Counted from the first letter of the stretch, positions 9,645 to 28,912 are shown. The stretch is 28,912 nucleotides of DNA from a virus (IMGVR_UViG_3300018083_000100:1-28912), one strand, 5' to 3'. The notes: generated by a model from the sequence alone, not told the origin. Made by a program: numbers and translations.

Positions 9645-9650
9645 CTCCTC
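9645..9650 (-). promoter_or_regulatory. Ribosome binding site deciding the start of the Cys4 gene
   Basis: GAGGAG on the minus strand, followed by AAGATC and ATG 9638. It overlaps the TGA stop of the fibre gene (9651-9649). It excludes the upstream in-frame start candidate at 9701, which lies inside the fibre chaperone coding region. Confidence 0.8.
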
Positions 9651-12600: not shown

Positions 12601-15600
12601 GCGGGTGTTCCAGTAAGCGCCAAACAGCCCGGATGGAATTGTCTGCCCGCCCACGCTGTTCTGTAGCCCGATGCCGAACCACGAGCTGATTGCCAGGTTG
12701 TTGGCACCAAGCCCCCAGCTATCCACACCCGTGAAATATATCGCGTAGGAACCGCCGGAGAGGAAAAGGCGGTTGCTCGCCGACATGATAAGGTTGCCGG
12801 TCATCGTGCCACCGCTGATCGGCACATACAGGCCGACCTTGGTGTCGACATACTGCTTGGTCACAGCCTGCAGGTTAGCCGTCGGATCACGCACCAGCGT
12901 GATATCCGTCGCTGCCGCCATCACTATGCCGGTGCTGTTGACTGTGGCGATGTCAACGCCGTTGACCAGGAACCAGTGCGCCGCCAGGTTCGGCACGTTG
13001 TAGTTGGTGCGGAAGGCCATGACGTTGAAGCCATAGCCGCCAGTGTGCAGCGAGAGGTGCCTCGTCAGGTCAGTGTTCGAGGCTGCGACAGCAGCACCGA
13101 AGTTTATGCCTCCCACCATAGAGCCGCCGGTCAGAGGCAGGCGCGTAGTATCAGAAGGATGCACGTGGTCGCCCCGCGACCAGGTCACATTTGAACCAGC
13201 ATAGGCCGTGCCATTCATCGCGGGCAGAGCGGCAGAAGCTGGCAGGACATCCGTGACGTCGGTGAGGATCATGACCACATCACCGGTGCGCGTGTTGAAG
13301 CGCGTCACACCTCCACCGGTCTTTGTATCCACATACTGCTTGGTGGCCGCGCCCAGGCCGGTAGTAGGGTCCGCCACCAGGAGCATCGTGCCGAGATTAT
13401 CGACAGTCGCCCCGTTGAGGTAGATCGAACCCGTGCTGAACACGCGCAGCTCAGCCGGACCCGCGATGCGCGAGGAGATGCCGACGTCGGAAGCAGCACC
13501 TGCCAGACCCTGGATGAGCACGCCATAGTTGGCGTCGGAGTTGATCGACCCCGTGGTTGCCAGCACCGCCTGGAAGTTGACCTTACGCGCCGAGGACATC
13601 GTCAAATCGCCGGACATCGTATCGCCGGCCTTGAGAACGCGCGCAGTGTCCGCCGCGTCGACATACTGCTTGGTGGCGGCGTGCAGGACGGCTGTCGGGT
13701 CCTGCGCCAGCGTCAGGGTCTTACCGGCTGCCAGAGTGGTGTTCTGCCCCAAAGTGATAGATGACCCGCTAAGCGTGAGAGGCTGATAGGAACCCACACC
13801 GGTGTTATCGACGCCCTCGATGGTGAACCCGCCGGCACTGGCGACGAAGCGCGCCCCCTTGGTCACTCCATTGACCAGCAGGCCAAGTGCGCTGTCGGCG
13901 ACTGATATCTTCAGGTTGCCCGTCATCGTATCGCCAGCCTTGGCGACACGCGTTGTGTCTGACGGATGCACGTGATCGCCGCGTGTCCAGGCCCCTGAGG
14001 CGCCAGCTGATGCCGTGCCATTCATAGCGGGCACAGTCGCGTAGGACGGCAAGACCCCGATCACGTCGGCGTTCAGCAGCACTACGTCACCAGTGCGGTT
14101 ATTGAAGCGTGTGACGCCTCCAGCTACTTTTGTATCGACATACTGCTTGGTGACAGCATGCAGAGCGGCAGTCGGGTCGGATACCAGGGTGGTGACACCT
14201 GCCGTGTCGACCTGGACCCCATTGATGATGACGAGACCAGTGCTGCTGATCTTGATCTGTGCGGTGGCTCCGCCGACCCGCGAGATGATACCAACGTCGG
14301 CGACTGCTCCAGCTAGGCCTTGTAGCAGCATGCCGTAATTCGCATCGCTGTCGATGATGCCTGTCGTGGTAGAGACTGCCTGCAGGTTGATGGCACTTGA
14401 CGCTGTCATCGTCAGCGGCCCAGTCATCGTGCCGCCAACTGTTGGCAGGTAGCCACTGCCGCCGACCCGGGCATCGACATACTGCTTGGTCGCTGCGTGC
14501 ATGACAGCAGTTGGATCACGCGCCAGGGTAATATCGGTGGTCGCTGCCATCGTCAGACCAGTTGACGCGATGGTCACCGTGTCGATAGCGTTGATGACGA
14601 AGACGTGGGAGTTGCTTGCTGCCACTACGTAATTCTGGCGAAAGCCCGTTATGCTGATACCGTTAGACGTGCCGTAGAGCGCCAGGTGTTGCGTCACATC
14701 GGTGGCACTTGCAGCACCCCTGCTGCCGAAGCTCAGCCCGCCGGTCATCGCCGCACCAGAGGAGAGCATCACCGAAGTCCAGGCGTTGTAGACGCCTGTC
14801 GAGGTCATCCAGCGATAGGACATCCCGGCGTTGTGCATAGCAAGCTGGGTGGTCAGGCCTGACGTGGAACTCCAGAGGTTGAGGACAGAGGCCGTGGTGA
14901 TACCAGGCGGGAAGTTCAGCCCAGCCGTCTGGTTGAAGATACTGTGGAAACCCTGGTAGCTGGTGAAAGGTCCAGCCGCACCTGAGCCGCTGATGGTGTT
15001 CAGATCGAAGGCGCTATCCGTGGCAATGCGCGTGAAGCTGGGCTGCACCTTGTCGACATACTGCTTAGTCGCTGCATGCATAGCAGAGGTCGGGTCAGCT
15101 GCCAGGACGAGGTTGCCTGACAGTATCCACAGACCGCTGCTGGCGACCTGGGCGATATCCGTGGTGCCGACCACAAAGACGTGGTTGCTGGCCACGTAGT
15201 TCTGCCGGCCACCCGTGATGCTGAAACCGTAGACGCCACCATAGAGATTGATATGGCGCGTCAGGTCGGTTGTGCTGGCAGCAACAGCACTGCCGAAGCT
15301 CAGGCCTCCGCTCAGCGTCCCGCCGGTCAGTGCGAGCCTGGAGGTGTCCGAGGGGTGGATATGATCGCCCCTGGACCAGGCGGTGCTCGAGCCAGGTGCC
15401 ACAGCGCCGTTCATAACCGGGTTGGTCGCCGACGACGGCAGCACCGCTATCACATCAGCGTTGTTAAGGGTTACCGGACCAGTCCGCAGGTTGAAGGAGA
15501 CGACGCCTGCCGCGAACTTGGTATCCACATACTGCTTCGTCGCTGCGTGCATCAGAGCTGTCGGGTCGCCCAGCAGAGTGATCGTGCCGGTGTTGATGGT

Positions 15601-18600
15601 AAGCCCGGTATTGTCAATCTTCAGGATGTCGACGGCGTTGACCAGGAACCAGTGCACACCGTTGAGACCAATCACATAGTTTATGCGGTTGGAGGTGACA
15701 CCGATGCCATAGGTCGTGCCGTAGAGCGAGATGTGGCGGGTAATATCCGTGTTGCCGGCCACAACTGAGGAACCGAAGCCCAGACCCCCGCTGAGCGTGC
15801 CGCCGGTCAGATGCAGGTCAAGCGCGTCCCTGGTATCGACATACTGCTTGGTGGCGGCCCCCAGGACCCCGCTGGGGTCAGCCGAGAGGACGAGCAGGCC
15901 AGACATAGTCCCCCCTGCCAGGGGCAGGTAGGAGCCTGTCACCAGGGTCCTCACCGAGTCGACGTATTGCTTGGTGGCAGCATGCAGAAGCGCGGTCGGG
16001 TCAGCCGGCAGGGTCAGAGGTCCGGCGAGGCTGAGCGCTCCGGTTGGCAATAGGGTCATCAGCACAGTCTGTGTGCCAGGTCCCGTTACCTGATACCAAC
16101 GGAAGCTCTGCACAGCCGCTGCGTAGGAATTGATGAAGTCAGCCTCGGCCTGGCCAGCGCTATGGTTGAACCCGAGGTGCATACCGAAGACTGAGGTCAG
16201 CACCATGTTGTTCATGTTGCCGGCGATAGTCACTGGCACGATGGCTGAAGCGGGATTGGCCATCAGGTTGCCGGTCATCGTCCCGCCAGCCTTGAGCAGG
16301 TAGTTACCCTGCGCTGTCGTCACGGCGTCGACATACTGCTTGGTGGCAGCCTCGAGGGCTGTGCTCGGATCACCCTTGAGGATCACTGAACCGGTGAAGG
16401 TCCCGCCCAGGGTGGTGACGATCCTCCACCAGGGAGACCAGGTGCCGCCGAACTGGCTGCGATACCAGAGCGAGGCATCCGTCGTGGCGTTGGCAGGCGG
16501 CCCCATCAGGAGCTGACCTGACCAGCCCGTGGTTGTGCCATAGCCGGTCAGCAGATAACCGGACTGCGCATAGATACCAACTGGCCAGTTGGCGGCTGCC
16601 GTCTGGTTGGTGAACTGGTAGCTGCCGATGTAGCCGGCAGGAACGGTGTTGAGGTCGAAGGCGCCGGCGCCCACAAGAGTGACCGACTCAGCCCTTGACC
16701 AGGCCAGCGCTCTGCGGCCATAAGTCGAGGTGTCGTTGGGCGCGTCGGATGCGATAGGCGTGCGGCCATCAACATACTGCTTGGTGGTGGCCTGCAGAGC
16801 GGAGGAGGGGTCACGGGCCAGGATGATATCCGTGGTGCCCAGCATGGTAAGGCCGGTGGCGCCGATGCTGGCGACGTCAACTGCCGCTATGCGGAACCGG
16901 TGCGCTGCCCCACTCGATGCGTTGTAGTTCAACCGGCCTGAGGTAACACCAAAACCATAACCGTTGGTGTGCAGGGTAATGTGCTTTGAGAGGTCTGAGG
17001 CGCTGGCGCCAACCAGGATGCCGAAGGAGATGCCACCCGTCATCGTCCCGCCAGCGAGCGGCAGGAAGGGCCTGGCATCGACATACTGCCGCGTTGCCGC
17101 CATCAGGTTCGAGGTAGGATCGCTCTGCAGCACCAGGCTGCCGGTCATCGTCCCGCCGGCAAGGTTCAGCTTGTTTGTATTGAGCCAATTCAGCGTAGCC
17201 TGCACGTTGGTCGTGCCCTGGATCGGCGGAGTGACCTCAACAGCGTCTGCCGTGAAATAGACAAGACCGGTCGGCAGAAAAATCCACATATCGCCGTCAG
17301 AAATGAACCAGTCGCCTCGCACATACTGCGGAGTGCCAAGAGGCAGGGGCGGAATGTTTGAGCCGGTCGCTGGCGGTATCCCTCCTACTGTCACGATTAT
17401 ATAGCCGCCCTTGGGGACGGAAGTCGGCGGCGGCATAGGGCTGTTGGGAATGTTTATAGTATATTTGTATTGCACTACATCGTTTGCGACATCCAACTGG
17501 CCATAGAACACGAGGTTGCCAGACACCACCGCCGAGATTTGGCTTTGCAGGTTCTGGTCTGCCGCATCCACGTAGAATTTGGCGGTCGCCATTTCATCGA
17601 CGGTGGGTGTCACATGCGGCAGGTAAAGCTGCCCGGTCAGCGCCTGCGACGGCCCCGCTGTGATCGGTAAGAAGGGACCTCCGGATGACGCGATGATGCC
17701 GTCGACATACTGCTTGGTGGCAGCATGCATATTTGCCGTCGGTTGCTTGCCCAGAACGACCGTGGTCAGCCCCACCATGTTCAGGCCGGTCGTGTTGAAG
17801 TAGGCGATATCAGTGCCGCTGGTGCCAGCATTGAACCAGGTGGCGGAGGTATCCGGCGCCACAATGTTCAGGCGCGCCGTGGTGATCGAGAAACCGAAGA
17901 CTGTGCCGTAGAGTGCCAGGTGGCGGGTTAGCACAGTTGGGCCGGCTACCACCGCCGAGCCGAAGGAGATGCCGCCTGTCATAGCACCACCCGCCAGGGG
18001 CAGCATCAGGTCGGCATACTGCTTGGGCACCGCCATCAAGGCGCCAGTAGGGTTGCGGCTCAGCGTGATATCCGTGCTGGCCGCCATGACCAGGCCAGTG
18101 TTGTTGATGGTAGCGACGTCTGTCGATACCATAAAGACGTGCGTGCCACCGACAGGCGCGAGGTAATTCACCCGGTTGGCGGTGACCCCGATGCCCATGC
18201 CTGAGTAGAGAGTGATGTGCTTGGAGACATCGCCTGGCACAGTGCCCAGGGCGTTGGCGAAGATGATGCCACCTGTCATCGTCCCGCCTGCCAGAGGGAG
18301 GAAAGCACCTATCTTCGTATCTACATATTGCTTGGTGGCGGCACCCAGAGCAGCCGAGGGGTCAGCCGCCAGGATCAGTGGTCCTGTGAGAGTTCCTCCT
18401 GCCAGGTTGAGTTTCAGCGCCAGGGCGTTGTCAGCATACTGCCGCGTGACAGCATGCATGATAGCACTGGGGTCTTTGGCCAGGGTGATGTCGACAGCAC
18501 CAGTCATGATGATGCTGCCGGTCATCGTCCCGCCGGTCAGGTTTAGCTTGAGCGCCAGGCCGGCATCCATCTGCTGCTTGGTCGTGGCGTGCAGCGCTGA

Positions 18601-21600
18601 GCTGGCATCGCGGTTCAGGATGATATCGGTCGAAGCCGCCATGGTCAGGCCGGTCGAGCCGATATTCAGCTTGTCAACACCGTTGTATATGAACCAGTGC
18701 GCGCTGGCACCACCTGGCACGTTGTAGTTGAGGCGTGAGGTGGTGACGCTGAAGCCATGCCCGGTGTTGTGCAGCGTGATATGCTTGGAAAGGTCAACAG
18801 TCGTCGCACCCACCAGGGCGCCGAAGGAGATGCCGCCTGTCATGATGCCGCCTGCCAGAGGCAGGAAGCCGCCCGCTACAATCTTGTTGTCGACATACTG
18901 CTTGGTGGCGGCGTGCAGGTTGGCTGTGGGGTCAGATGGAAGGGTGATGGCCCCGGTGAAGGAAGCCGAACCAATGACCTGCAGGCGGTCGACCAGGTTG
19001 TCCAGCGCCGGGTCGCTGCTTCCCAGCATCCAGTTGCCGGAGCCATTGATAAGGCCCGCTGGGCTGCGCGTTGTGCTTCCCTTAGGCGTAAGGGCGAACA
19101 GTATGAAAGTGCCATGCTTGCCGGCTGCCCAGGTCTCGTTGGCGCGCAGCATGATCGCTGCCTGGTCGTCGCTCCAAGCTGTGCCGTCATGACCACGTCC
19201 GACCAGGCGCAACAAGGTCTGACTGTTCAGCACCGCCACCTGGCTCGCCATAGAGCCTTGCGCTGCCACACCTACCAGGGAAGGCTCAGCGCCTCCTGCA
19301 GAGACAATCCAGTGCCCGGCAAGGGTGCCAGCACCTGTCCATACAATCGTCTGACGCACCTGGTCACCGGCAACCGCGCCTGTCCAGGCGAAGCCGGTAG
19401 AGTTGATCGTCAGCGGTCCGGTCAGGTTACCGCCTGCCAGGGGGAGGTAAGCGCCGGCCTTGCTGTCAACATACTGTTTAGTGGCAGCCTCGAGGTTACC
19501 TGCCGGGTCCGCCTTGAGGAACAGAGAGCCTTGCATCGTCAGGTTGCCACTGGCAATCTGCATGACCAGTGTGCTGCCCTGGGCGAACTGGTGCACACCA
19601 GCCCAGTTGTAGTTCAGGACATTGCCGGTCGAGACGCCGAAGCCACCCAGGCCGGCATACATCTCGATGCCGCCAACAACCGCGGCTGTGGTGGAGTTAA
19701 TAGACCCGAGCTTCAAAGTTCCACCTGCCAGCGGCAGGATGTCACCGAGGTTGTTGAACCTGATCCAGGTCGACGTGGCGATGCCGTTAAGGTCAGTGCC
19801 GCCGATGCCAAGCGTGCTGGCAGCCGAAGCGAAGATACCGAAGCCCGCAGCGTTCACCGTATCCCAGAAGCCGTGGGTGCGGTTCATCACACCGGCGGAC
19901 CAGTTAATGGTGAAAGGCGAGTTGCTCTGCACGCGCCCTGTCAGCACACCACCTGCCAGAGGGAGATAGACGCCCACTGTGGTGGCAACGGCGTTGTCGA
20001 CGTAGAGCTTGGTTGCAGCGTGCGCATTGGCGGTCGGCGTAGTGCCGAGGAACAGAGGACCGCTGACCGTGCCGCCTGCGAGTGGGAGATAGAGCGCGAT
20101 GGCAGCGTTCAGCTGCTGCAATGGTATAGCGTGCAGCGCTCCGCTCGCGTTACGGAACAGCGTTAGGTCACCCGTCAGGATGCCACCTGCCAGCGGGAGG
20201 TAAAGCCCCAGGCCAGCATTGAGCTGTTGCAGCGTTACTGCGTGGAGAGGGTTGAACCCGTTGCGGAACAAGGTCAAGTCGCCTAGCATCGTGCCACCTG
20301 CCAGAGCCAGGTAGCTGCCGGTGATAGTCGCGGCCTTGTTGTCTACATACTGCTTGGTGGCGGCGTAGAGCGGAGCGCTTGGGTCGCGGGCCAGAGCCAG
20401 ATCAGTGTTCGGCTGCATGTTAAGGCCGAACGACGTGATCGTGACGATGTCCACAGCAGCTGCCATGAACACGTGGCTGAAGTTGACCGGCAGGTTGTAG
20501 TTGAGCCGGTTGGCTGTGATGCCGAAGCCGACGTTGGAAGACGCGTGCAGCGAGATGTGGCGTGTGATGTCCGTGGTTGTAAGGACCACAGAGGAGCCGA
20601 AGCCCAGTCCTCCTGTCAGCGCCCCACCTGTCAGAGGCAGGTAGCCTGCGATGACGAAGCTCTTGACGGCATCAACATACTGCTTGGTAGCAGCACCAAG
20701 GTTGGCACCTGGGTCAGCGTTGAGTATCAGCGGACCTGTCATGGTCCCGCCAGACTTCAGCAGGTAGTTGCCCTGGGCACTGGCGACTGCGTCAACGTAG
20801 ACCTTGGTGGCAGCGTGGAGGTCAAGGGTGGGAGCACGCGCCAGCAGGATATCGAACCCGGCGCTCATCGTCAGCTGGCCGGTGAGAACGCCACCAGTCA
20901 GGTTGAGCTTCAGGGCGTCAGCTGTATCTACATAGGTCTTGGTGGTGGCGTGCAGCGGTAAGCTGGGAGGACCAAAGAGCGTCAAGGCTCCCGACATCGT
21001 GCCACCTGCCAGAGGCAGATAGCTCCCAGTGATGGCGATGGTCTTGTCGTCGACATACTTCTTGGTAGCAGCATGCAGGTCAGACGTCGGGCCGTGGTCA
21101 AGCTGCAGGTCGAACCCGCTGCCCATCGTCACCCCAACCGAGGTGATCCGCATGATGTCGGCAGTGCCGGACATGAACCAGTGCGTGGCATTGGGAGGCG
21201 CGTTGTAGTTGAGCCGGTTGGCCGTGATACCGAAGCCGTAGCCTGAATTGTGCAAGGAGATGTGACGCGACAAATCCGTCGTGGTGAGGACCACAGACTG
21301 CCCGAACCCCAGGCCGCCTGTCAGGATGCCACCGCTTAGCGGGAGGTAATCCCCGGTCTTCGACTCCACCCACTGCTTGGTCGCTGCGTGCAGGGGCGCT
21401 GTAGGGTCAGCGTAGAGTGTGATCCAGACCCCAGTGCCGACCTGGATATTCGAGGCCCCTATGGTCAGGCGGTCCTGCGTGCCTGTTATGAAGACATGCG
21501 CACCGGCAACGTTGGCGTTGTAGTTGAACCGGTTGGAGGTGATGCCGAAGCCATAGCCCGAAGTGTGCAGGGTAATATGGCGGGACATATCGGTGACGGC

Positions 21601-22392
21601 AGCGGCAAAGACACCACCGAAGCCCAGGCCGCCTGTCAGCGAGCCGCCTGATATGGGCAGGTAGCCACCTGAGACGATGGGTGCGTAGGTTGCATCGGTA
21701 TAGGCTTTGTTGACGGCATGCTGCGCCGCACTGATCGTGTAGGTCAGCAGCAGCGAAGTGGCGACCGTGATGGCACCAGTCGAGCGCTTGATCGCCAGAG
21801 GAGCAGGACTAAGGATAGCGCCCAGGTCGCTGAACCGGTTGAGCAGGAAGTCCGTGCCGTTGTTGAACCCGCTCTCGTTCTGTGTCCCGCCGAACTCCAT
21901 ACCCCAGCGCGGCAGGCCATAGCGCTGGCTTTCGAAGTAACCGGCAGCAGAGGTGGCCTGCGTGGTGTTCCACTTTACCCCAGGCCAGCCGGCACCTGTT
22001 GCCAGGATCGTCAGGTTGTTGACGTCGACATCAGTGCGGATCGTCAGACCACCCACCAGGGTGCCACCGGTGATCGGCAGAACCTCGAGCCAGTCCTGAA
22101 CCGTGCCCTGGCGACCATAGACTTTTGCATCTGCAGGCGCTTCAGGGAATGAGGCGCCCCCGGTATCGCCGCTGTCTATCAGCAGCTTGCGCCCAGTGGG
22201 GTCCATGCTGGTGGGGACGCCCACCCATATCTTCGCCGGCGTTGCCAGCTCCAGGCCCAGCTCACCCACCAGCAAGGTATTGGCTGGAGGCGGGCTGTTG
22301 GGGTTGACGGTGTAGAGATGCTGCACCGTATCCCACCGCGGGCCGGCGAGCGGTTTAGGTCTTCCAGGCGGGAAAGACGATCCGTCCATCAT
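9649..22392 (-). CDS. Giant repeat fibre with S74-type C-terminal chaperone
   Basis: From ATG 22392 the gene encodes 4,247 aa. The N-terminus has GELGLELATPAKIWVG (about residue 45), a head domain typical of phage fibres. The body holds about 32 linkers of the form DPTAxLHAATKQYVD, most preceded or followed by LPLAGGTMTG. Between them are inserted: about 12 copies of a roughly 75-aa beta module (TDLSRHISLH..GYGFGITANRLNY), three copies of a RTGDVVL..TRGDHVHPSDTTR module, two pyocin-knob-like modules (about 16420-16720 and 14755-15045) and one unique Pro-rich domain (about 17175-17560). The last 122 residues start GSDARIKD and contain YIGLVAQEAE, the intramolecular chaperone / S74 peptidase that trimerises and cuts itself off. 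The frame is open to GTG 22446, but that extension overlaps the DUF4054 gene. Paired ATGs at 22392/22389 follow its TAA. No ideal ribosome site is visible. Confidence 0.9.
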   Translation of the reverse strand: MMDGSSFPPGRPKPLAGPRWDTVQHLYTVNPNSPPPANTLLVGELGLELATPAKIWVGVPTSMDPTGRKLLIDSGDTGGASFPEAPADAKVYGRQGTVQDWLEVLPITGGTLVGGLTIRTDVDVNNLTILATGAGWPGVKWNTTQATSAAGYFESQRYGLPRWGMEFGGTQNESGFNNGTDFLLNRFSDLGAILSPAPLAIKRSTGAITVATSLLLTYTISAAQHAVNKAYTDATYAPIVSGGYLPISGGSLTGGLGFGGVFAAAVTDMSRHITLHTSGYGFGITSNRFNYNANVAGAHVFITGTQDRLTIGASNIQVGTGVWITLYADPTAPLHAATKQWVESKTGDYLPLSGGILTGGLGFGQSVVLTTTDLSRHISLHNSGYGFGITANRLNYNAPPNATHWFMSGTADIMRITSVGVTMGSGFDLQLDHGPTSDLHAATKKYVDDKTIAITGSYLPLAGGTMSGALTLFGPPSLPLHATTKTYVDTADALKLNLTGGVLTGQLTMSAGFDILLARAPTLDLHAATKVYVDAVASAQGNYLLKSGGTMTGPLILNADPGANLGAATKQYVDAVKSFVIAGYLPLTGGALTGGLGFGSSVVLTTTDITRHISLHASSNVGFGITANRLNYNLPVNFSHVFMAAAVDIVTITSFGLNMQPNTDLALARDPSAPLYAATKQYVDNKAATITGSYLALAGGTMLGDLTLFRNGFNPLHAVTLQQLNAGLGLYLPLAGGILTGDLTLFRNASGALHAIPLQQLNAAIALYLPLAGGTVSGPLFLGTTPTANAHAATKLYVDNAVATTVGVYLPLAGGVLTGRVQSNSPFTINWSAGVMNRTHGFWDTVNAAGFGIFASAASTLGIGGTDLNGIATSTWIRFNNLGDILPLAGGTLKLGSINSTTAAVVGGIEMYAGLGGFGVSTGNVLNYNWAGVHQFAQGSTLVMQIASGNLTMQGSLFLKADPAGNLEAATKQYVDSKAGAYLPLAGGNLTGPLTINSTGFAWTGAVAGDQVRQTIVWTGAGTLAGHWIVSAGGAEPSLVGVAAQGSMASQVAVLNSQTLLRLVGRGHDGTAWSDDQAAIMLRANETWAAGKHGTFILFALTPKGSTTRSPAGLINGSGNWMLGSSDPALDNLVDRLQVIGSASFTGAITLPSDPTANLHAATKQYVDNKIVAGGFLPLAGGIMTGGISFGALVGATTVDLSKHITLHNTGHGFSVTTSRLNYNVPGGASAHWFIYNGVDKLNIGSTGLTMAASTDIILNRDASSALHATTKQQMDAGLALKLNLTGGTMTGSIIMTGAVDITLAKDPSAIMHAVTRQYADNALALKLNLAGGTLTGPLILAADPSAALGAATKQYVDTKIGAFLPLAGGTMTGGIIFANALGTVPGDVSKHITLYSGMGIGVTANRVNYLAPVGGTHVFMVSTDVATINNTGLVMAASTDITLSRNPTGALMAVPKQYADLMLPLAGGAMTGGISFGSAVVAGPTVLTRHLALYGTVFGFSITTARLNIVAPDTSATWFNAGTSGTDIAYFNTTGLNMVGLTTVVLGKQPTANMHAATKQYVDGIIASSGGPFLPITAGPSQALTGQLYLPHVTPTVDEMATAKFYVDAADQNLQSQISAVVSGNLVFYGQLDVANDVVQYKYTINIPNSPMPPPTSVPKGGYIIVTVGGIPPATGSNIPPLPLGTPQYVRGDWFISDGDMWIFLPTGLVYFTADAVEVTPPIQGTTNVQATLNWLNTNKLNLAGGTMTGSLVLQSDPTSNLMAATRQYVDARPFLPLAGGTMTGGISFGILVGASASDLSKHITLHTNGYGFGVTSGRLNYNASSGAAHRFRIAAVDVASIGATGLTMLGTTDIILARDPSSALQATTKQYVDGRTPIASDAPNDTSTYGRRALAWSRAESVTLVGAGAFDLNTVPAGYIGSYQFTNQTAAANWPVGIYAQSGYLLTGYGTTTGWSGQLLMGPPANATTDASLWYRSQFGGTWSPWWRIVTTLGGTFTGSVILKGDPSTALEAATKQYVDAVTTAQGNYLLKAGGTMTGNLMANPASAIVPVTIAGNMNNMVLTSVFGMHLGFNHSAGQAEADFINSYAAAVQSFRWYQVTGPGTQTVLMTLLPTGALSLAGPLTLPADPTALLHAATKQYVDSVRTLVTGSYLPLAGGTMSGLLVLSADPSGVLGAATKQYVDTRDALDLHLTGGTLSGGLGFGSSVVAGNTDITRHISLYGTTYGIGVTSNRINYVIGLNGVHWFLVNAVDILKIDNTGLTINTGTITLLGDPTALMHAATKQYVDTKFAAGVVSFNLRTGPVTLNNADVIAVLPSSATNPVMNGAVAPGSSTAWSRGDHIHPSDTSRLALTGGTLSGGLSFGSAVAASTTDLTRHINLYGGVYGFSITGGRQNYVASNHVFVVGTTDIAQVASSGLWILSGNLVLAADPTSAMHAATKQYVDKVQPSFTRIATDSAFDLNTISGSGAAGPFTSYQGFHSIFNQTAGLNFPPGITTASVLNLWSSTSGLTTQLAMHNAGMSYRWMTSTGVYNAWTSVMLSSGAAMTGGLSFGSRGAASATDVTQHLALYGTSNGISITGFRQNYVVAASNSHVFVINAIDTVTIASTGLTMAATTDITLARDPTAVMHAATKQYVDARVGGSGYLPTVGGTMTGPLTMTASSAINLQAVSTTTGIIDSDANYGMLLQGLAGAVADVGIISRVGGATAQIKISSTGLVIINGVQVDTAGVTTLVSDPTAALHAVTKQYVDTKVAGGVTRFNNRTGDVVLLNADVIGVLPSYATVPAMNGTASAGASGAWTRGDHVHPSDTTRVAKAGDTMTGNLKISVADSALGLLVNGVTKGARFVASAGGFTIEGVDNTGVGSYQPLTLSGSSITLGQNTTLAAGKTLTLAQDPTAVLHAATKQYVDAADTARVLKAGDTMSGDLTMSSARKVNFQAVLATTGSINSDANYGVLIQGLAGAASDVGISSRIAGPAELRVFSTGSIYLNGATVDNLGTMLLVADPTTGLGAATKQYVDTKTGGGVTRFNTRTGDVVMILTDVTDVLPASAALPAMNGTAYAGSNVTWSRGDHVHPSDTTRLPLTGGSMVGGINFGAAVAASNTDLTRHLSLHTGGYGFNVMAFRTNYNVPNLAAHWFLVNGVDIATVNSTGIVMAAATDITLVRDPTANLQAVTKQYVDTKVGLYVPISGGTMTGNLIMSASNRLFLSGGSYAIYFTGVDSWGLGANNLAISSWFGIGLQNSVGGQTIPSGLFGAYWNTRTGDQQILGDLAVRNSRDNAVSQIQNIRIWRSSTDQIIDIASVVTTASMTSNTPVAGGSGLVLNERLYDAYGNTYTATAVTGGVATTVIMNTATARNGNVPANPIALTAAPGFVGIGVTVNLTWTAPTRLVLATGANQSLYLNSVVGTTVNGATGSWGSFNYGKQLLVTGNSTNPAIGIADNSGGNWVAIINSAGKMMFADMPSIVDSTTAPTHLLQLDVSSCIAYRDFTFNGKVTLSADPSANLEAATKQYVDTKVSTGVGAYLPLTGGTLTGPLLTSYTATATTAQIFIRPVGNANSLESKLRFGGTFASGTDYGARLTASLRSGYSAGAWGGEYLDVWMNNGGANDSSTDASQLQIARFTRAGIAINGVAATARGLVFTTAGSRRWEIRANATAESTGNVGSDLDIFNFDDTSTAIANPLVRITRSTGQVTINAGLSLGSVASALPNTLTRHLMLYSTSYGLSVTSNTLNIVTGGTTIQFLTGATVLGTLTATGLAMGASTDITLVRDPTAALHAATKQYCDNKFALAVGGGYVAKTGDTMSGALIVGSAVGNVQLNQGNATQTGYVSFFNQAAVRQGYFGYASGGALQLVLEAGTSQLSLTGNFSINGWGGGYASLELRKGGSGQGNQILGYTGSGASLRWNLQMGDGTAEAAGNDGSHFAIHRYDNSGNYVGNPLHINRANGTVTIANTLSMGGEIWSQNGIIRVNPAGTAYIFYNNSNSTFYLQATNGLVLTGAPISMQGTVNFNGLVNIAGLTATNSHIVIQAPGGAFASYNSSSAYCGGMWVAGAGGVQFGQCNSSGGPTVTHAFISASSFGTVAWDCSFACNNGANSLCYGNGSQFIVPSAAYKPGGGAWADGSDARIKDVLADYKTGLEAILALRPVWFRYKNNWSRDGDVEKERHREVVGKEYIGLVAQEAEIPMPEMVSSITAKLDNIEVNDLRILDMTALPLALVNAIKELVTMNAALSERVAALETRTLH
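9652..10017 (-). other. S74-type intramolecular chaperone domain of the fibre
   Basis: The last 122 codons begin with Ser-Asp-Ala-Arg-Ile-Lys-Asp, the usual S-D-x-R-x-K(-x) signature of the endosialidase-type chaperone whose Ser starts the self-cleavage site. They continue with LALRPVWFRYKNN, HREVVGKEYIGLVAQEAE and a C-terminal coiled-coil-like helix (ELVTMNAALSERVAALETR). These domains assemble trimeric beta fibres and are released by autoproteolysis. The exact bond cut here is inferred by analogy. Confidence 0.85.
11030..21720 (-). repeat. About 32 AATKQYVD linker repeats and interleaved beta modules
   Basis: Within the fibre gene the phrase encoding ATKQYVD recurs with very little DNA change. 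The 12-mer atactgcttggt (plus strand) appears identically at least a dozen times, for example near 11850, 12850, 13660, 14480, 16335, 16775, 17710, 18895, 20350 and 20690. Spacing between copies ranges from about 100 to over 600 bp depending on which module lies between. The repeats are coding and in frame. They are not CRISPR-like, because the spacing is irregular and the spacers are homologous to one another. Confidence 0.85.
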
Positions 22393-22396
22393 TGGC

Positions 22397-22891
22397 TTAT
22401 CGTAAATATCCTGTGTAGCCCGGGATGTAGCCGCCGCTGGTGACACGCGGGTCGGTCAGCGAGAGTATCTCCACCCCGCCGATGCCGATCATGCGTGCCC
22501 ACCACAGGAACTCCTGGCCGTAGCGCGTGTAGTTCCAGGGTCCACCGCCCTCCATCGAGGTGCTCGAGAGGTCATAGCTCACCGACACCTTGGAGACTGA
22601 CTTGCTCGAGACCAGGCCGGAGGAGCCACCAGGTGCGCCCCCTGCTGCTCCGCTGCCTGCCGAACCATAAGCCATCGACAGGCTGTGCGCGGTATACAGC
22701 TCCACACCCCTTTGTATATACGACCCCCAGCGGACAGGTCTGAGCATGATGCTGCCGAGGTCGATATACATCTGCACGTTCACGTCCGGGTAGTCCCGCG
22801 TGCTGCTGAACTCCGGGAAGTGCAGACGGAAGGTGGGCGGATCAGTGATGGTCGAGGTCGGGATGACAGGAGGCGAGAGAGTAGCACTCAT
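22397..22891 (-). CDS. Head-tail connector, DUF4054-type
   Basis: The 164-aa protein has the DUF4054 pattern as I know it: FRLHFPEFSSTRDYPDVNVQ at residues 21-40, a YIDLGSIML helix, RWG...RGVELYTAHSLSMA, a Gly/Ala-rich loop (AGSGAAGGAPGG), then SSKSVSKVSVSYDLSS and RYGQEFLWWARM. This family is a head-tail adaptor binding at the portal. It is normally followed by other neck genes. Here the giant fibre gene comes next. ATG 22891 overlaps the upstream TGA (ATGA). The C-terminus (VTSGGYIPGYTGYLR) is kept because it reads well and its overlap with a possible fibre extension is resolved in its favour. Confidence 0.9.
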   Translation of the reverse strand: MSATLSPPVIPTSTITDPPTFRLHFPEFSSTRDYPDVNVQMYIDLGSIMLRPVRWGSYIQRGVELYTAHSLSMAYGSAGSGAAGGAPGGSSGLVSSKSVSKVSVSYDLSSTSMEGGGPWNYTRYGQEFLWWARMIGIGGVEILSLTDPRVTSGGYIPGYTGYLR

Positions 22892-23366: not shown

Positions 23367-24344
23367 TCAGATGCCGTCACGGTAGCCGATCGTCTCCGGG
23401 TAAGGCGACTCAACCTGACCCATGCGCGACCAGTAGGTGGTGATGTTGTAGAGTGAGCGCCACTCCAGCGGGGTCTTCTGCAGCGGGGTCATCGGGAAAC
23501 GCACCTTGTCGTATTCCTTCGTGTAGGCGACCATACGCTGGGTATTGCCGGCTCCCCGGTTCTTCAGCCACTTAGACGCCTGGATATTCAGCGGCTTGCT
23601 GCCATGCGTCGTTGTCAGGTTGTTCTCCTGCAGGAAGCGCAGGACAGACACGTTGCCGGCTGTCGATACTTTTGACGCTACCAGCATCGCCATCTGGGTC
23701 GGTGGCAGGCGTAGTTCGGAAGGCACGACAGCGAAGCCGCTCGCTTCCCACACACTCGCCAGAAGCTCGTTGATCTGGGCAAGGATGAGGTCAGGGTTGG
23801 CCGTTGTCCAGGCGCCACCAGTGACGTTGCCGACATTGGTAACCTGGGCTAGGTTGAACAGCCCTGTCGTGTTGACGCTCGTGGTCGGGTCGCCGATGTA
23901 GACGAGCTGGTCGGTGTCCATCTGGTTCTTCAGGCGAAGAGCCATGAACTTCTGTTCGTCGATAGGCCGGCCCAACTGGATAGCCGATGCCAGCTCAGGC
24001 ATCGAATAGGCCAGCTCCTGGCCCCAGATACGCAGGGGAAGGGCCGTCTTGCCAATGTCCAGCGAGACGCTGGGGATGGCATTGGCGACCTTGCTGATCC
24101 AGGACACGCCCTGAGTCTGGAAGCCGCCGGCTGCACCGAACGTCGAGTTGGTGTAGGAGGACCACTCGTCGCCAGTGGTGATGTCAGAACGCAGGTCAAT
24201 ATCGCGGGACCAGGTAATCGACACCAAAGGCTCGTGGATGCTCGGGTCGAGCCGCTCAAGCTCCCCGATCAAAAAGGACCCCGCGCTGTCGCGCGTGATA
24301 CCATCGAAGGTCTGCAGACCTCCGCCATACATTCCGTCAGGCAC
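23367..24344 (-). CDS. Major capsid protein, DUF2184-type
   Basis: The 325-aa protein fits the DUF2184 (encapsulin/HK97-like fold) major capsid family. It has FLIGELERLDPSIHEPLVSI at residues 24-43, SRDIDLRSDI, the GWSSYTNSTFG-like segment near 60-70, KTALPLRIWGQELAYSMPEL near 97-116, and in the second half LRLPPTQMAML and a (VAYTKEYDKVRFPM) P-domain-like strand near 265-280. Size is usual for the family. Start is GTG 24344, supported by AAGGAGGA (24360-24353). An ATG at 24332 would be 23 nt from that site and is less likely. No propeptide is obvious. It forms the icosahedral shell together with the cement protein encoded just before it. Confidence 0.9.
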   Translation of the reverse strand: MPDGMYGGGLQTFDGITRDSAGSFLIGELERLDPSIHEPLVSITWSRDIDLRSDITTGDEWSSYTNSTFGAAGGFQTQGVSWISKVANAIPSVSLDIGKTALPLRIWGQELAYSMPELASAIQLGRPIDEQKFMALRLKNQMDTDQLVYIGDPTTSVNTTGLFNLAQVTNVGNVTGGAWTTANPDLILAQINELLASVWEASGFAVVPSELRLPPTQMAMLVASKVSTAGNVSVLRFLQENNLTTTHGSKPLNIQASKWLKNRGAGNTQRMVAYTKEYDKVRFPMTPLQKTPLEWRSLYNITTYWSRMGQVESPYPETIGYRDGI

Positions 24345-24352
24345 TGGGTCTG

Positions 24353-24360
24353 TCCTCCTT
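24353..24360 (-). promoter_or_regulatory. Very strong ribosome binding site of the capsid gene
   Basis: AAGGAGGA on the minus strand overlaps the TAA stop of the cement protein gene and lies 8 nt before GTG 24344. The site is the best match to the anti-Shine-Dalgarno in the head region, in keeping with high capsid expression despite the GTG start. Confidence 0.75.
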
Positions 24361-24880
24361 ATCCGACAGCGAGAGAGACTTCGACGACGTCACCTGTGAC
24401 GCCGCTAGACATGAACACGAGGCCTGGCAGAGCAACACAAGTGCCGGCACCTGGAGCCACGGCAGTAACATTGCCCTGCACCTGGTTGCCTGCTGTAGCG
24501 CCTGTCCAGATATTCGCAGCTGCGTTCTTCACAGCCGCAGAGGCCCCGCCCAGCTTGACCAGCATATATCCACGGCGCATAACGTCACAAGCTCCTGAGG
24601 TCGGCGGAGCAGTGAGAGTGCCGAGCTGGTCATTCAGCGAACCAACCGGGCTGCCGAACCCCTGGGTGGGATAGGGCCGCACGAGCAGTCCGTAGAAGCC
24701 AGTGGTATCAGAGGTCGTCGCCTGGCGGATAGAGCCAGTCGCTGCGTCCATCACCACCATCGTGCCGTAGGTAAGCGGAGGTGTGGTCACGCTAATCGGC
24801 TGGCCTTCAACCGTGGCGTGCTCCCAGCGGTTCAATGAACCGGGGAAGCCTGCCGGCATCGTCGTCAGATAGGCTACCAT
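24359..24880 (-). CDS. Capsid cement/decoration protein, Gp24-like
   Basis: The 173-aa protein begins VAYLTTMPAGFPGSLNRWEH and has GFYGLLVRPYPTQGFGSPVG near residue 61, then GACDVMRRGYMLVKLGG near residue 97. The MPAG(I/F)PG start, the YG(F/L)LVRPYPTQ strand and the RGYM-VKL strand are what I associate with structural cement protein Gp24 of phages with DUF2184 capsids, where it stabilises the shell. AAAGGAGA lies 6 nt before ATG 24880. It is next to the capsid gene, as usual for the family. Confidence 0.85.
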   Translation of the reverse strand: MVAYLTTMPAGFPGSLNRWEHATVEGQPISVTTPPLTYGTMVVMDAATGSIRQATTSDTTGFYGLLVRPYPTQGFGSPVGSLNDQLGTLTAPPTSGACDVMRRGYMLVKLGGASAAVKNAAANIWTGATAGNQVQGNVTAVAPGAGTCVALPGLVFMSSGVTGDVVEVSLAVG

Positions 24881-24904: not shown

Positions 24905-25873
24905 TTAGCTGGCGCGCCGCCCAACACCGCCATTTGCCGCCCAGAATTCGGCATTGCGCTTGTTGAGGTTCTCAATCTTCGAACGCAGCGAGTCGTTGGT
25001 GGACCGGCGGTTCGTGCCGAACTGCGGGCTTGGCATGTTGGCCGAGTTGTTCATCGCCCGCATGCGGTCGGAAGCGTCGATGAAGATGATCCGCACTGCG
25101 TCACAGCTCATAGTCTTGAGCGAGTCCGCAGTGTGGCGTCCCACCGCCACCTGGCCACGCTCAGAGGAGAGCGCTGTCGTCAGAGCCTGCCGGCGCAGCC
25201 CGCAGATGCGTGCACCTGCGTCCTTCATCCGGTTTGCCCCTGCCGCACCATCGAGCACACCGATCTTGATGCCAGGAGCAAGGATTTCGGCCCGTGCCTT
25301 GGTATCGCGGACAAGCGTATTCATGGCCTGGTTGACCCGTGCCGTGTAGGTCGAGTCGCCCATCATAGAGGGTCCGGTCTTCAGAGCCGGGTCGGCCTCC
25401 ATCAGGTCAGGCTCGGCAGAGCCTGGGTCGGTGCCGGTCATTGCACCTTCACCGATGGTGGGGTCACCATTGGCGTCCTTGGTGTCGTCCTTGTCGTCAT
25501 CGTCCTTCTTGTCGTCGTCGTCATCGTCCTTCTTGGGCGGGAACTCGTCCTTGGCCCGGGACGTCATCATGTCAGTCAGCTTCGCCATGCCGTCGCGAAG
25601 TTCCTTGAGGGCGTCTTCAGTCTTCTTCTTGAAGTCGTCCTTGTCGTCGTCGTCATCCTTGTCCTCATCACGCGTGCCGGCCTTGTCGCCGGGTCCAGCG
25701 TTATGGTGGTTGTGGATGACGATAGCCTGCTTGCCTTCGTCGCCGTCAGGCTCGCCCTCGCCAGGGTCGTCCTTCTTGGCGGCTTCGGCATCAGCCACGA
25801 TCGCTGCCAGGGAGGCCTTGTCCCTGGCAAAGAATGCGTCGTGGATGTAGTCGCGCATCGAGCGTTTGCTCAC
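24905..25873 (-). CDS. Acidic capsid-assembly/scaffold-like protein
   Basis: From GTG 25873 the product has 322 aa. It opens with a helical segment (MRDYIHDAFFARDKASLAAI), followed by Asp/Lys-rich low-complexity stretches (about residues 70-83 and 111-132) around a helix KKKTEDALKELRDGMAKLTDMM. The C-terminal half is more ordered (AEILAPGIKIGVLDG, ARICGLRRQALTTALSSE, SCDAVRIIFIDASD). Position before cement and capsid genes and its acidity suggest a scaffold-type role. No prohead protease catalytic motif is visible, so any protease must be elsewhere, for example beyond 28912. AGGAGG at 25885-25880 is 6 nt before the GTG. The frame is open up to 25927, but that extension has no such site. Confidence 0.75.
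   Translation of the reverse strand: MSKRSMRDYIHDAFFARDKASLAAIVADAEAAKKDDPGEGEPDGDEGKQAIVIHNHHNAGPGDKAGTRDEDKDDDDDKDDFKKKTEDALKELRDGMAKLTDMMTSRAKDEFPPKKDDDDDDKKDDDDKDDTKDANGDPTIGEGAMTGTDPGSAEPDLMEADPALKTGPSMMGDSTYTARVNQAMNTLVRDTKARAEILAPGIKIGVLDGAAGANRMKDAGARICGLRRQALTTALSSERGQVAVGRHTADSLKTMSCDAVRIIFIDASDRMRAMNNSANMPSPQFGTNRRSTNDSLRSKIENLNKRNAEFWAANGGVGRRAS
25483..25535 (-). repeat. Trinucleotide GAC/AAG tract coding Asp/Lys
   Basis: A nearly pure run of GAC, GAT and AAG codons on the minus strand (plus-strand gtcgtccttgtcgtcatcg) encodes an Asp/Lys low-complexity segment of the scaffold-like protein. A second, shorter tract lies at about 25635-25670. Such tracts are prone to slippage in whole triplets, keeping the frame. 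Confidence 0.7.
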
Positions 25874-25879
25874 TGCGGA

Positions 25880-25885
25880 CCTCCT
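25880..25885 (-). promoter_or_regulatory. Ribosome binding site deciding the scaffold start
   Basis: AGGAGG on the minus strand, 6 nt before GTG 25873. It favours that start over GTG 25927, which would add 18 residues including a CGCQQC cluster. The 40-nt region 25874-25913 also holds a 9-bp direct repeat, AACAGTGCG. Confidence 0.75.
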
Positions 25886-25913
25886 CTCCTCGCACTGTTG
25901 ACACCCGCACTGT

Positions 25914-26156
25914 TTAGACAATTTCACCCTCGGACAGCGGGTCTAGCCCGAGCGCATGGTAGAAGTCATTGTCGCTCTCGAAGGGGATGCCCAGCTCAAC
26001 GGCATCGTCAAGTAGCTTCATGGCTTCTTTGGTGTGTTCCTCGTTGAGACCTATCAAGGTCGGCAGGTCGCCAAAAGCGTTCAAGTATGCGGACTTTGAC
26101 CTTTCCATAGACTCGTGTGTAGCCCGCATCGCTGCCCACTCTGGTTTGTCTTCCAT
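25914..26156 (-). CDS. Small acidic helical protein, unknown function
   Basis: The 80-aa product starts MEDKPEWAAMRATHESMERS and contains KSAYLNAFGDLPTLIGLNEE and the acidic C-terminus FYHALGLDPLSEGEIV. It looks like a real soluble helical protein, and its codon use (GAC, CTG, GGC, ATC) resembles that of the operon. GGGAAG precedes ATG 26156 by about 7 nt. An in-frame TAG five codons upstream closes the frame. The first 149 nt overlap the end of the large upstream frame, whose codons there include several AGA, AGG and CGA and read like a shadow. Either two genes overlap or the two frames belong together through a +1 shift. I do not recognise the family. Confidence 0.7.
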   Translation of the reverse strand: MEDKPEWAAMRATHESMERSKSAYLNAFGDLPTLIGLNEEHTKEAMKLLDDAVELGIPFESDNDFYHALGLDPLSEGEIV

Positions 26157-28912
26157 CTCCAGTCTTCCCTAGCTTGGCGGCGTTCTCGTCCCGCATAGCG
26201 CCCTTCTGGTATAGAATTTCGTCGAAGGTCTTGCAGCATTTGGGCGCTATGGCATGGTATATCGCTTTGTGGATACTGCCGTGCTTGCTGTTGACCATGG
26301 CGACGTAGTTGGCAAACATCTCCGCTGTGGCGAACTCCGGGGTGTCCTTGTAGTAGCTGGTTGGATGGCCGCGCATGATTTTGTTCTTTGTCAGGGAACC
26401 AACGAAGTCCTCGAAGAGACCGCTGTCGCCATGCTCGCCACCCTGCGGCATAGATGACTTGATCCACTTGTGGTCACCGCCCAGGACATTCAGAACGGAC
26501 TGGGCACGCCGCAGGTCACCTGCCGAATAGTCCAGCAGCACAGCATAGTTGATACCATGGGTCTTACAGCCTTCCTGCACCTTAGCAGGGTCACGTTCAA
26601 GGTCGAACACCCTTGCGAAGTCGTGCTTGCCTACCTTCTTGATGAGGGTCGCTGCCTCCACAATGCGGTCACTCTCGGCGCGCAGGGAGGACTGGCTGCG
26701 ACCCCAGCGGGTCTGCGAGTCCGGGTGTGGATCATATTGCCAGTCGATGGCGTGGCCGAACTCGTGGCGCCAGACGTTCTTCATGGTCCCTGGCGAATAG
26801 TTCATATTGATGATGCGCTCACCAGGCTTGAAGTGCGAAATCGCACCCTGGTTGTAATAGACGTCGTTGAGCTTCTCGGAATGCGCCAGAGCTGCCAGGG
26901 TGGCGTCGTCAGCGTGGTTCCATGAAACACCGTGCTCAGCCCGCTCCGCTGTGCGCCAGTCCTGCCGCTTGGCCATAACGCTGTGGATTGTATGCACAAC
27001 CTTGCCGGGCACGGGCACAGGCGGTCTTGGCGATGGAGGCGCCGGCTTGGGTGCAGGCTCCGGCTTGGGGTCAGGCTTAGCCTTCTCGCCCTCTGAGCCA
27101 CGCGGCTTGCGCACGGCCTTGCCCAGGGTGCCAGGCTTGAGCTCGTGCGCCTCCTCCATATGCTGGATGAGCCGGTTAGCGTAGGACGCCGGTGTGGCAT
27201 CGGTCTGCTTGGCGGCGATGTCCTTGAGCTTGGCGGCAATCTCCTCGACGTCGTGCCCCTCATGCAGGGCCTTGGTCACCATCTCGCCCATCGCCTTGCC
27301 AATCCATGACTTGGCAATGCGTTCCGAGGTAGGCTTGGGCACCATCTTGGCGAAGGTCCTGGTGCGGTCGGTAGAGGCGTAGGCGTGCGCAAGGGTGGGC
27401 GAACTGGTGGAGCTACCCTTAGAGCCGCCCCCTTTCGGGGAGCCGCCAGCAGCCTTCGGGGAGGCTTTAGAGCCTGCTTCTGAAGGCGTGGCCCCACCTC
27501 CACCGCCTCCACCAGAGGTGAACTGCCCGCCGCCTTTCCCGGAGGGAACGCGTGGGTGCTCACCCTCCACCCAGCCAGCATCCCGGTAATCGATGTCCTC
27601 GTCCCAGGAATAGTCAACGTCCTTGGTCACTTCATCAAAGTTCTCGAGCGCGTCGGCCAGGTGTTCGATGTATTGCTGGAGCAGGGCGACGTCCTCATCG
27701 CTCAGCTCGTCGTCAGCGTCTTTGGTCTTCTTCTTGCGCCCGAACACCGCCTTGCCTGACGCCACCATCGACTTGAGCGCGTGCTCAGCCAGGACGTGCT
27801 GGACAACCTCGTGGCCCAGATGCTGCGCCAGGGCAGCAGCACCATGGGAGAACGCCCCACCTGTTGGGTCACCCGCCAGCAGGGCACCACCTGACAATGC
27901 GATGCGCGTGCCGAAGTTGCGCAGGCCGCGGAACTGCTCGGAGGAGGGCTTGCGGCCACTCGCCATGGCGACGATAGCGCCGACGGCGTGCCTGGCGTTG
28001 TGCCCCTCCTCCTTGAGCTTGGACTTCATCACCCCAGGCGCTGACTTGGCCAGGGCGCGCATATGGTGCGAGACCTTGCGGCGGTGCTCCTCGGGTATCT
28101 GGCCGAGCTTCTCCTTGACGATGTGGCGTTCCTCTTCGCCAAACTCCTTGACGGTCTTTACAGCTTTGGCAGCACCACGCGAGACCAGGCCGTGCTCGCC
28201 CTTACTGGTAGGGAAGCGGCCCTCGCGGCCACCCCCACCACCTGAGGTGAACTCACCACTTTCGTTGCGTGGGTGCTCGCTCTCAACGAAGCCGCTGTCC
28301 ATGACTTTGTCTATCTCAAATGGATCGAAGCCCAGCATGGCAATGACGTCAGGGTCGGCCTCAGTGACGTCGTCACCATCGTCATCGTCAGGCTCGTCAT
28401 CGCTGACCTCAGGCAGGACCTCACCCACTGTGCCCCAGTGAGCCTCGGGCAGGTCGTAGTCGTCGACATACTCCGCTGCAGCGTCAGCCGTCAGCACGCC
28501 GGCATGCTGGCGCCAGTTGGCGAACACCACAGGGGAGATATACGAGGCGAGTGCTATGGCAGGGGTGTTGCCCAGCTTGGCGGAGACGGCAGTCGCTACG
28601 TGCTTGACAGCGCGCTTGTATTCTTTCTCATTGGTAGGCTCAGGGGTTTTGCGGATCATCTCCAGCGCGGTCTGGGTGCCAAGGTGCGTGCGGAAGTCCT
28701 TGGTCTTGAAGCTGCCTAGTGTATGCACATGGGCCAGCACCTGCTTCTCGCTGACCTGGAACAGCTGGCCGGTCTCGCCTGCTGCCTCCTTGCGCTTGAG
28801 CAGCATGGCAGCGATGGAGGGGTCGGATACCTGCATCTCGATGGTCTGGCCGTGCTTCTTGCCAGGCACGAACTGCAGCTTGACCCCGCCGTTGCCATCA
28901 GGCAGGACGTGA
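26008..28912 (-). CDS. Multidomain virion protein: TopIB C-terminal core, linkers, metallopeptidase (5' partial)
   Basis: The frame enters at the window edge (968 residues visible) and its start lies outside. Residues are counted from the GTG at 28869. Residues 1-120 match the C-terminal catalytic part of bacterial/poxvirus-type topoisomerase IB: VPGKKHG hairpin, FKTKDFRTHLGT (Arg 60), KLGNTPAIALASYISP with the presumed nucleophile Tyr 110. Residues 155-175 are Asp-rich. EHPR joints occur at 198 and 437, each followed by FTSGGGG. Between them is a basic helical domain (about 225-380). A Pro/Lys linker (about 590-620) leads to a metallopeptidase-like domain with RHEFGHAIDW (His 702, Glu 703, His 706) and a possible third ligand Glu 850 in FATAEMFANY. 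After about residue 905 the frame looks like a shadow of the next gene. By position it is probably a virion or ejected protein. Confidence 0.75.
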   Translation of the reverse strand, partial: HVLPDGNGGVKLQFVPGKKHGQTIEMQVSDPSIAAMLLKRKEAAGETGQLFQVSEKQVLAHVHTLGSFKTKDFRTHLGTQTALEMIRKTPEPTNEKEYKRAVKHVATAVSAKLGNTPAIALASYISPVVFANWRQHAGVLTADAAAEYVDDYDLPEAHWGTVGEVLPEVSDDEPDDDDGDDVTEADPDVIAMLGFDPFEIDKVMDSGFVESEHPRNESGEFTSGGGGGREGRFPTSKGEHGLVSRGAAKAVKTVKEFGEEERHIVKEKLGQIPEEHRRKVSHHMRALAKSAPGVMKSKLKEEGHNARHAVGAIVAMASGRKPSSEQFRGLRNFGTRIALSGGALLAGDPTGGAFSHGAAALAQHLGHEVVQHVLAEHALKSMVASGKAVFGRKKKTKDADDELSDEDVALLQQYIEHLADALENFDEVTKDVDYSWDEDIDYRDAGWVEGEHPRVPSGKGGGQFTSGGGGGGGATPSEAGSKASPKAAGGSPKGGGSKGSSTSSPTLAHAYASTDRTRTFAKMVPKPTSERIAKSWIGKAMGEMVTKALHEGHDVEEIAAKLKDIAAKQTDATPASYANRLIQHMEEAHELKPGTLGKAVRKPRGSEGEKAKPDPKPEPAPKPAPPSPRPPVPVPGKVVHTIHSVMAKRQDWRTAERAEHGVSWNHADDATLAALAHSEKLNDVYYNQGAISHFKPGERIINMNYSPGTMKNVWRHEFGHAIDWQYDPHPDSQTRWGRSQSSLRAESDRIVEAATLIKKVGKHDFARVFDLERDPAKVQEGCKTHGINYAVLLDYSAGDLRRAQSVLNVLGGDHKWIKSSMPQGGEHGDSGLFEDFVGSLTKNKIMRGHPTSYYKDTPEFATAEMFANYVAMVNSKHGSIHKAIYHAIAPKCCKTFDEILYQKGAMRDENAAKLGKTGDGRQTRVGSDAGYTRVYGKVKVRILERFWRPADLDRSQRGTHQRSHEAT
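26190..26900 (-). other. Zinc-metallopeptidase-like domain (HExxH)
   Basis: The HEFGH motif is encoded at 26766-26752, preceded by a strand (IINMNYSPGTM) and a helix start (KNVWR). About 145 residues later, TPEFATAEMFANYVAMV offers a Glu that could be the third zinc ligand, as in zincin-type proteases where a downstream E-x-F-A helix supplies it. The fold assignment rests on the motif and its flanks only. Confidence 0.65.
28475..28912 (-). other. Type IB topoisomerase catalytic segment
   Basis: This part of the large frame holds the Lys-bearing hairpin (VPGKKHG), the KDFRT motif with the catalytic Arg, LGNTPA and the A-S-Tyr-I-S-P motif with Tyr encoded at 28542-28540. Order and spacing match the C-terminal half of bacterial TopIB. 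The N-terminal part of such a domain, including the first catalytic Arg, would lie beyond 28912. Whether the enzyme is complete cannot be seen. Confidence 0.8.

Follow-up and report, generated by a model that had tools for sequence, protein, structure and literature searches.

A type IB topoisomerase fused to a phage head-maturation protease as a putative exchangeable cargo of the head

Why the catalytic end of a type IB topoisomerase (TopIB) should share a reading frame with a HExxH domain, directly beside capsid genes, is the question raised by a 28,912-nucleotide stretch of viral DNA (IMGVR_UViG_3300018083_000100:1-28912), referred to here as the window. An earlier note, made from this sequence alone, had read the frame as a TopIB fused to a virion protein with a metallopeptidase domain and had suggested a packaged or ejected effector. 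The three C-terminal TopIB motifs that it named (KDFRT, LGNTPA and ASYISP) are all present in this part of the frame, which stays open over 967 codons and reaches the end of the window, the 5' end of the gene lying outside.

26008-28911, minus strand: fusion protein, last 967 codons (open frame; continuation in the contig L002, below)
28498-28911, minus strand: C-terminal part of the TopIB catalytic domain (motifs and alignment of relatives, profile match)
28849-28863, minus strand: Lys of TopIB, in GKK
28687-28701, minus strand: Arg of TopIB, in KDFRT
28558-28575, minus strand: Asn of TopIB, in LGNTPA
28531-28548, minus strand: catalytic Tyr of TopIB, in ASYISP

A GTG at 28869 was rejected as the start codon, since the frame runs past the end of the window and this codon is internal; the catalytic Tyr is residue 110 only if numbered from it. 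The source record is a viral contig exactly as long as the window. The missing 5' part was supplied by IMGVR_UViG_3300021082_000327 (L002), a contig whose 5,712-base overlap with the window contains a single mismatch. The full gene (L002:4777-8901) spans 1,375 codons from stop to stop in a single frame with no internal stop, contains the full TopIB, and has no break between the TopIB and metallopeptidase parts. A GTG at residue 59 of this frame is one plausible start codon, and a DUF1073-type portal is encoded upstream of the gene. Within the protein, a recurring motif named the HPR tag (xES/D-HPR-x-G-x-F plus a Gly-rich stretch) stands before each of the TopIB, a basic helical domain and the HExxH domain, with an acidic linker after the TopIB and Gly-/Pro-rich stretches between the third tag and the HExxH domain. 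The domains follow one another in the L002 protein as listed first, and those downstream of the TopIB are located in the window as listed after them.

Residues 72-233 of the L002 protein: DUF2213 head-maturation protease (Pfam PF09979, E 1.7e-43)
Residue 247: first HPR tag
Residues 291-527: TopIB, bacterial-type N-terminal domain and catalytic core (E 1.9e-7 and 1.5e-16)
Residue 621: second HPR tag
Residues 653-788: basic helical domain
Residue 860: third HPR tag
Residues 1041-1340, approximately: HExxH domain
28297-28497, minus strand: acidic linker (from sequence; DEPDDDDGDD at 28369-28398)
28228-28287, minus strand: HPR tag preceding the helical domain, VESEHPRNESGEFTSGGGGG
27772-28179, minus strand: basic helical cargo domain (own HMM and alignment; common to other HPR-tagged head-module proteins)
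27493-27570, minus strand: HPR tag preceding the HExxH domain, VEGEHPRVPSGKGGGQFTSGGGGGGG
26122-26994, minus strand: putative zincin-like metallopeptidase domain (motifs; weak PHROG match)
26752-26766, minus strand: HEFGH of the HExxH domain
26305-26328, minus strand: TAEMFANY, in which we infer a candidate third ligand residue

The truncated frame in the window matched the Pfam TopIB profile below threshold (E 2.4e-4, 21.0 bits; cut-off 23.7). The full frame matched Topoisom_I (PF01028) with 60.9 bits against the same cut-off, and Top1B_N_bact also above its cut-off. The five catalytic residues of a TopIB (R, K, R, N and Y) are all in place, the first Arg lying upstream in a GMR motif, and they are kept in 79/79, 79/80, 80/80, 80/80 and 80/80 of the relatives covering each position. 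A profile built from 20 relatives matched the TopIB of Deinococcus (2f4q, E 3e-42) and that of the poxvirus variola (E 7e-19), while the AlphaFold (AF2) model of the domain reached a pLDDT of 90.6 and had variola 3igc (TM 0.80) and D. radiodurans 3m4a/2f4q as its top PDB folds in Foldseek. The IPPxW motif of the small N-terminal TopIB domain is absent in four relatives (L013, L033, L034 and L045). Judged by sequence and model, the fusion protein holds a complete TopIB, which is very likely to be catalytically active. The earlier note's call of a TopIB in a fusion was thus borne out on the full-length frame, including the first catalytic Arg that its partial view had left upstream.

The N-terminal domain lay outside the window and beyond the view of the earlier note. 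As predicted from its profile matches, it is a DUF2213 head-maturation protease, the match to the PHROG profile of this function (phrog_530) having an E value of 5e-42. At the other end of the protein, the claim of a metallopeptidase domain stood in part: HEFGH and TAEMFANY (as EMFANY) are both kept in a 38%-identical homologous domain in L006, and there is one weak match to the peptidase phrog_4415 (E 2.5e-4), but the fold model of the domain was unusable (pLDDT 33, AF2). The domain had no Pfam match, its hhalign alignment to an ATLF-like region was confined to 14 residues around the motif, and a search for metallopeptidase-domain relatives returned the same virus only. We regard it as a putative, and probable, zincin-like metallopeptidase. 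The basic helical domain received no assignment from Pfam/PHROG profile comparison or alignment; its own HMM matched at least 8 other contigs.

Downstream of the fusion frame, the window continues into the head module.

25914-26156, minus strand: small ORF of 80 aa, putative coding (shares about 150 bp with the fusion frame at its 3' end; no Pfam match or other assignment)
24905-25927, minus strand: separated scaffold-like second half of an ancestral DUF2213 protein (phrog_1961 positions 178-416)
24359-24880, minus strand: capsid cement protein (PF22758, E 1.3e-17)
23367-24344, minus strand: major capsid protein (MCP; PF09950, E 2e-71)

Further along, positions 9649-22446 (minus strand) hold a frame of 4,265 aa that takes up 44% of the contig. 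It consists of repeated LPLAGGTMTG...DPTxxLHAATKQYVD modules, closed by an S74 chaperone-of-endosialidase domain, and appears to encode a giant repeat tail-fibre-like protein.

The position of the fusion became clearer when its DUF2213 domain and the separate ORF downstream were compared with phrog_1961, a profile of 417 positions in which the protease forms the first part and a scaffold-like region the second. This profile is split at 177/178: the DUF2213 domain of L002 covers positions 6-176, and the window ORF at 24905-25927 covers the remainder up to 416. Both halves are joined in one ORF in L088, L026, L027, L028 and L034, and in L088, with an MCP identity of 84%, they form a single 547-codon frame without cargo, that is, an empty site. 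Other relatives carry different contents at the same slot: ADP-ribosyltransferase in L089; TopIB plus ADP-ribosyltransferase in L005/L090; TopIB, helical, NUDIX and ADP-ribosyltransferase in L003/L091; and helical plus DUF7178 in L092, L094 and L097. Close relatives with an empty site or other cargo share 80-84% MCP identity, and TopIB was found nowhere in the records of L088, L089, L092, L094 and L097, which are fragmentary. TopIB is therefore an accessory that can be exchanged at this slot. From its sequence, the fusion is a multidomain head-module protein with exchangeable enzymatic domains, as polyvalent proteins are, and it can be viewed as a head-assembly polyprotein in which a cargo cassette (TopIB, helical and HExxH domains) would have been inserted between the protease and scaffold halves.

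To see how widely the association extends, relatives of the TopIB were collected; a first scan gave 81 and a broader one at least 149 viral contigs, of which 92 were distinct after removal of duplicates. One of the relatives derives from a bog metagenome. A head-module gene was present in the same ORF or in the fetched flanks of 80 of the 92, and no recognised head gene was found at the other 12 loci. In 42/92 the TopIB was fused to a portal, a MuF protein (8) or DUF2213 (4), the portal fusions (30) involving four Pfam families (DUF1073-type 27, and lambda-type, HK97-type and Mu-type 1 each); the rest carried other cargo (6) or had no recognised partner (44). Where the TopIB stands alone, its gene is placed between those for portal and capsid, as in the order TerL-portal-TopIB of L012. 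Chance proximity to head genes was rejected, as the fusions are in frame with several anchor families. The earlier note's packaged or ejected effector is thus strongly supported at the sequence level by the full-length frame, the catalytic residues, the synteny and about 90 relatives, although that reading had missed the DUF2213 domain, the tagged slot and the other head partners.

Several single loci are recorded here for their architecture. A 281,566-bp contig (L032/L143) has two TopIB frames within about 6 kb, adjoining an NAD-dependent DNA ligase. Neither an HPR tag nor a recognised head gene accompanies them; the context is replication-like and the phage jumbo-sized. In L046:3256-6408, an intein splicing domain match lies ahead of the MuF match of a MuF-TopIB fusion. 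Next to the TopIB gene at L062:692-1957 comes a 2H phosphoesterase joined to a prohead protease of the S78 type, another enzyme-protease fusion. The MuF protein at L035:200-3892, which bears GNAT and anthrax-lethal-factor-like zincin domains, has a TopIB gene directly after it.

In a quick tree with SH-aLRT support only, 75 phage TopIBs formed one clade on a long branch (1.45, SH-aLRT 99), apart from 23 bacterial enzymes; two distant long-branch phage TopIBs were not reliably placed. Counting well-supported branches alone, portal fusion changed at least 7 times on the tree, and the anchors have therefore been switched repeatedly. With the whole fusion and the TopIB as queries, none of 50,697 cultured-phage records contained this clade. 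A scan of genome contigs gave 5 loci, four of which (L082-L085) resemble this phage group; the fifth, L086, was rejected as a clade member, being an ordinary bacterial TopIB.

These data bear on two other explanations of the enzyme. It could be an ordinary replication enzyme placed in a late operon, with the fusions due to read-through or annotation coincidence, as the stand-alone TopIBs of large phages (Motura and PaBG, from BFVD) and the ligase neighbour in L032 might suggest. Against this stand the continuous frames that link it to portal, MuF or protease in 42/92 relatives, the several anchor families, the common HPR tag and the separate clade, and we consider it highly improbable. It could also be an aid to structural assembly, the copies at portal C termini swivelling DNA that is overtwisted in packaging or ejection and thus working inside the capsid, not in the host. 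The C-terminal regions of portals generally point into the capsid, the C-terminal fusions reach portals of four families (30/92), and type IB topoisomerases relax DNA without ATP, all of which would suit such a role. However, many copies are stand-alone or attached to MuF or protease, an ADP-ribosyltransferase takes the same portal position in the phage Orisa03, and the patchy occurrence of TopIB among relatives of 80-84% MCP identity, whose records lack it, argues against an essential role in packaging in the lineage of the window, where packaging seems independent of the enzyme. A role of this kind is rather unlikely.

The HPR tag offers a possible means by which such enzymes reach the head. 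Its strict form was counted 99 times among 1.08 million residues of stop-to-stop locus frames, mainly in frames of TopIB, portal, DUF2213 and further cargo, compared to 0 in shuffles. An HPR-like tag lies just 5' of the TopIB in 59 of 84 5'-complete TopIB ORFs, usually between the TopIB and its fusion partner and usually 40-65 residues ahead of IPPxW; about 30% of TopIB ORFs have no recognisable tag, and neither the scaffold nor the cement protein nor the MCP of the carrier phages contains it. In four stand-alone TopIBs (L009, L026, L072 and L078), the tag lies close to the N terminus, which is more than a mere inter-domain linker would require. A short query with one copy of the tag gave no matches; a three-copy query reached Pseudomonas Orisa/Orimi (E 0.03), Xanthomonas and Gordonia phages, with weak E-values. 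In cultured Pseudomonas phage Orisa03 (L202:2270-4381), a portal of the DUF1073 type continues into the tag and then an ADP-ribosyltransferase, and in cultured Xanthomonas phage PhiXhv-5 (L203:2302-4398) into the tag and an unassigned C-terminal tail. In L047 and L070, where the tag is missing, a short motif, GMKWGVHK (DUF7211), stands before the cargo domains and may play the same role. By analogy, we infer that the HPR tag is a candidate cleavage or targeting site.

The explanation that we favour, as the probable one on this comparative evidence, is that the TopIB belongs with the polyvalent proteins, as an exchangeable cargo enzyme packaged in the head that would relax DNA during or after genome delivery. 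Its fusion partner or the HPR tag would bring the cargo into the prohead, and prohead proteolysis at the tag or close to it would set it free; it would then stay with the packaged DNA and enter the host along with it. Its most likely task there would be to relieve the phage genome of torsional stress while it is being delivered and first transcribed, much as poxviruses use their packaged TopIB for early transcription; since type IB relaxation needs neither ATP nor divalent metal, the enzyme could work in the capsid or just out of it. The two parts of this explanation differ in strength: the TopIB is likely to be present in the virion, and the chances that phage DNA, at or after delivery, is its main substrate are about even. 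Points against the explanation are the TopIB ORFs and the head proteins in which the tag is missing, the 12 loci with no recognised head gene and the ligase neighbour in L032/L143. Alternatively, the injected enzyme might be directed at the host, relaxing its chromosome or disturbing supercoiling-dependent transcription or a topology-sensing defence. It does share its slot or neighbourhood with ADP-ribosyltransferase, NUDIX, zeta toxin, GNAT, inorganic pyrophosphatase and zincin domains; yet type IB relaxation is housekeeping-like and its toxicity not obvious, so that a host-directed effector seems improbable.

Returning to the packaged cargo enzyme, a broader proposal can be put forward tentatively and with some doubt: that there is a dedicated family of head-borne TopIBs, recruited onto portals, MuF proteins and proteases as a virion DNA swivel managing torsion at portal passage or cell entry, and that the HPR tag is a general, apparently undescribed capsid-cargo tag for loading and releasing interchangeable enzymes. 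If true, the tag and the exchangeable slot would give a sequence handle for cargo enzymes in phage heads, including those of cultured Pseudomonas and Xanthomonas phages.

A known class is that of the polyvalent proteins encoded by phages and conjugative elements, which includes effectors fused to portal or MuF (Iyer et al., 2017, PMC5512222). The fusion resembles them as a multidomain head-module protein; effectors on portal or MuF and zincins are common to that class, whose members are predicted to be packaged and injected, whereas a DUF2213 protease serves as the anchor here and the HPR tag is repeated. TopIB is not among the domains in the main text of that paper, where the single 'topoisomerase' belongs to a reference title, and no description of a phage TopIB fused to or associated with portal, capsid or prohead protease was found in open-licence PMC papers. 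As far as found, the class is known and TopIB on head proteins is new. The internal proteins of T4 are carried in the head by short capsid-targeting sequences, cut by the prohead protease and then ejected (PMC9026906). They and Alt are head-borne proteins with a short tag, but this is a functional analogy only, cleavage at the HPR tag being proposed; they include no TopIB and their tag differs. The large phages PaBG, Motura and BS162P1 also encode a TopIB fold, which is stand-alone, as far as seen without head-protein fusion, and distant (BS162P1, 31% identity). The TopIB of Deinococcus radiodurans (2f4q) shares the N-terminal and catalytic domains and the catalytic residues, including the Asn of LGNTPA, but is a stand-alone cellular enzyme of a separate clade. 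The poxvirus enzymes of vaccinia and variola are packaged in the virion, as predicted here, and match in fold (3igc), although they belong to unrelated viruses, stand alone without a capsid-protein fusion and share about 20% identity. For the packaged vaccinia TopIB, early transcription is the main field of action (PMC12188299). Should the phage enzyme indeed be part of the particle, DNA torsion in genome delivery becomes open to experiment, and phages would join poxviruses as carriers of a ready-made topoisomerase.
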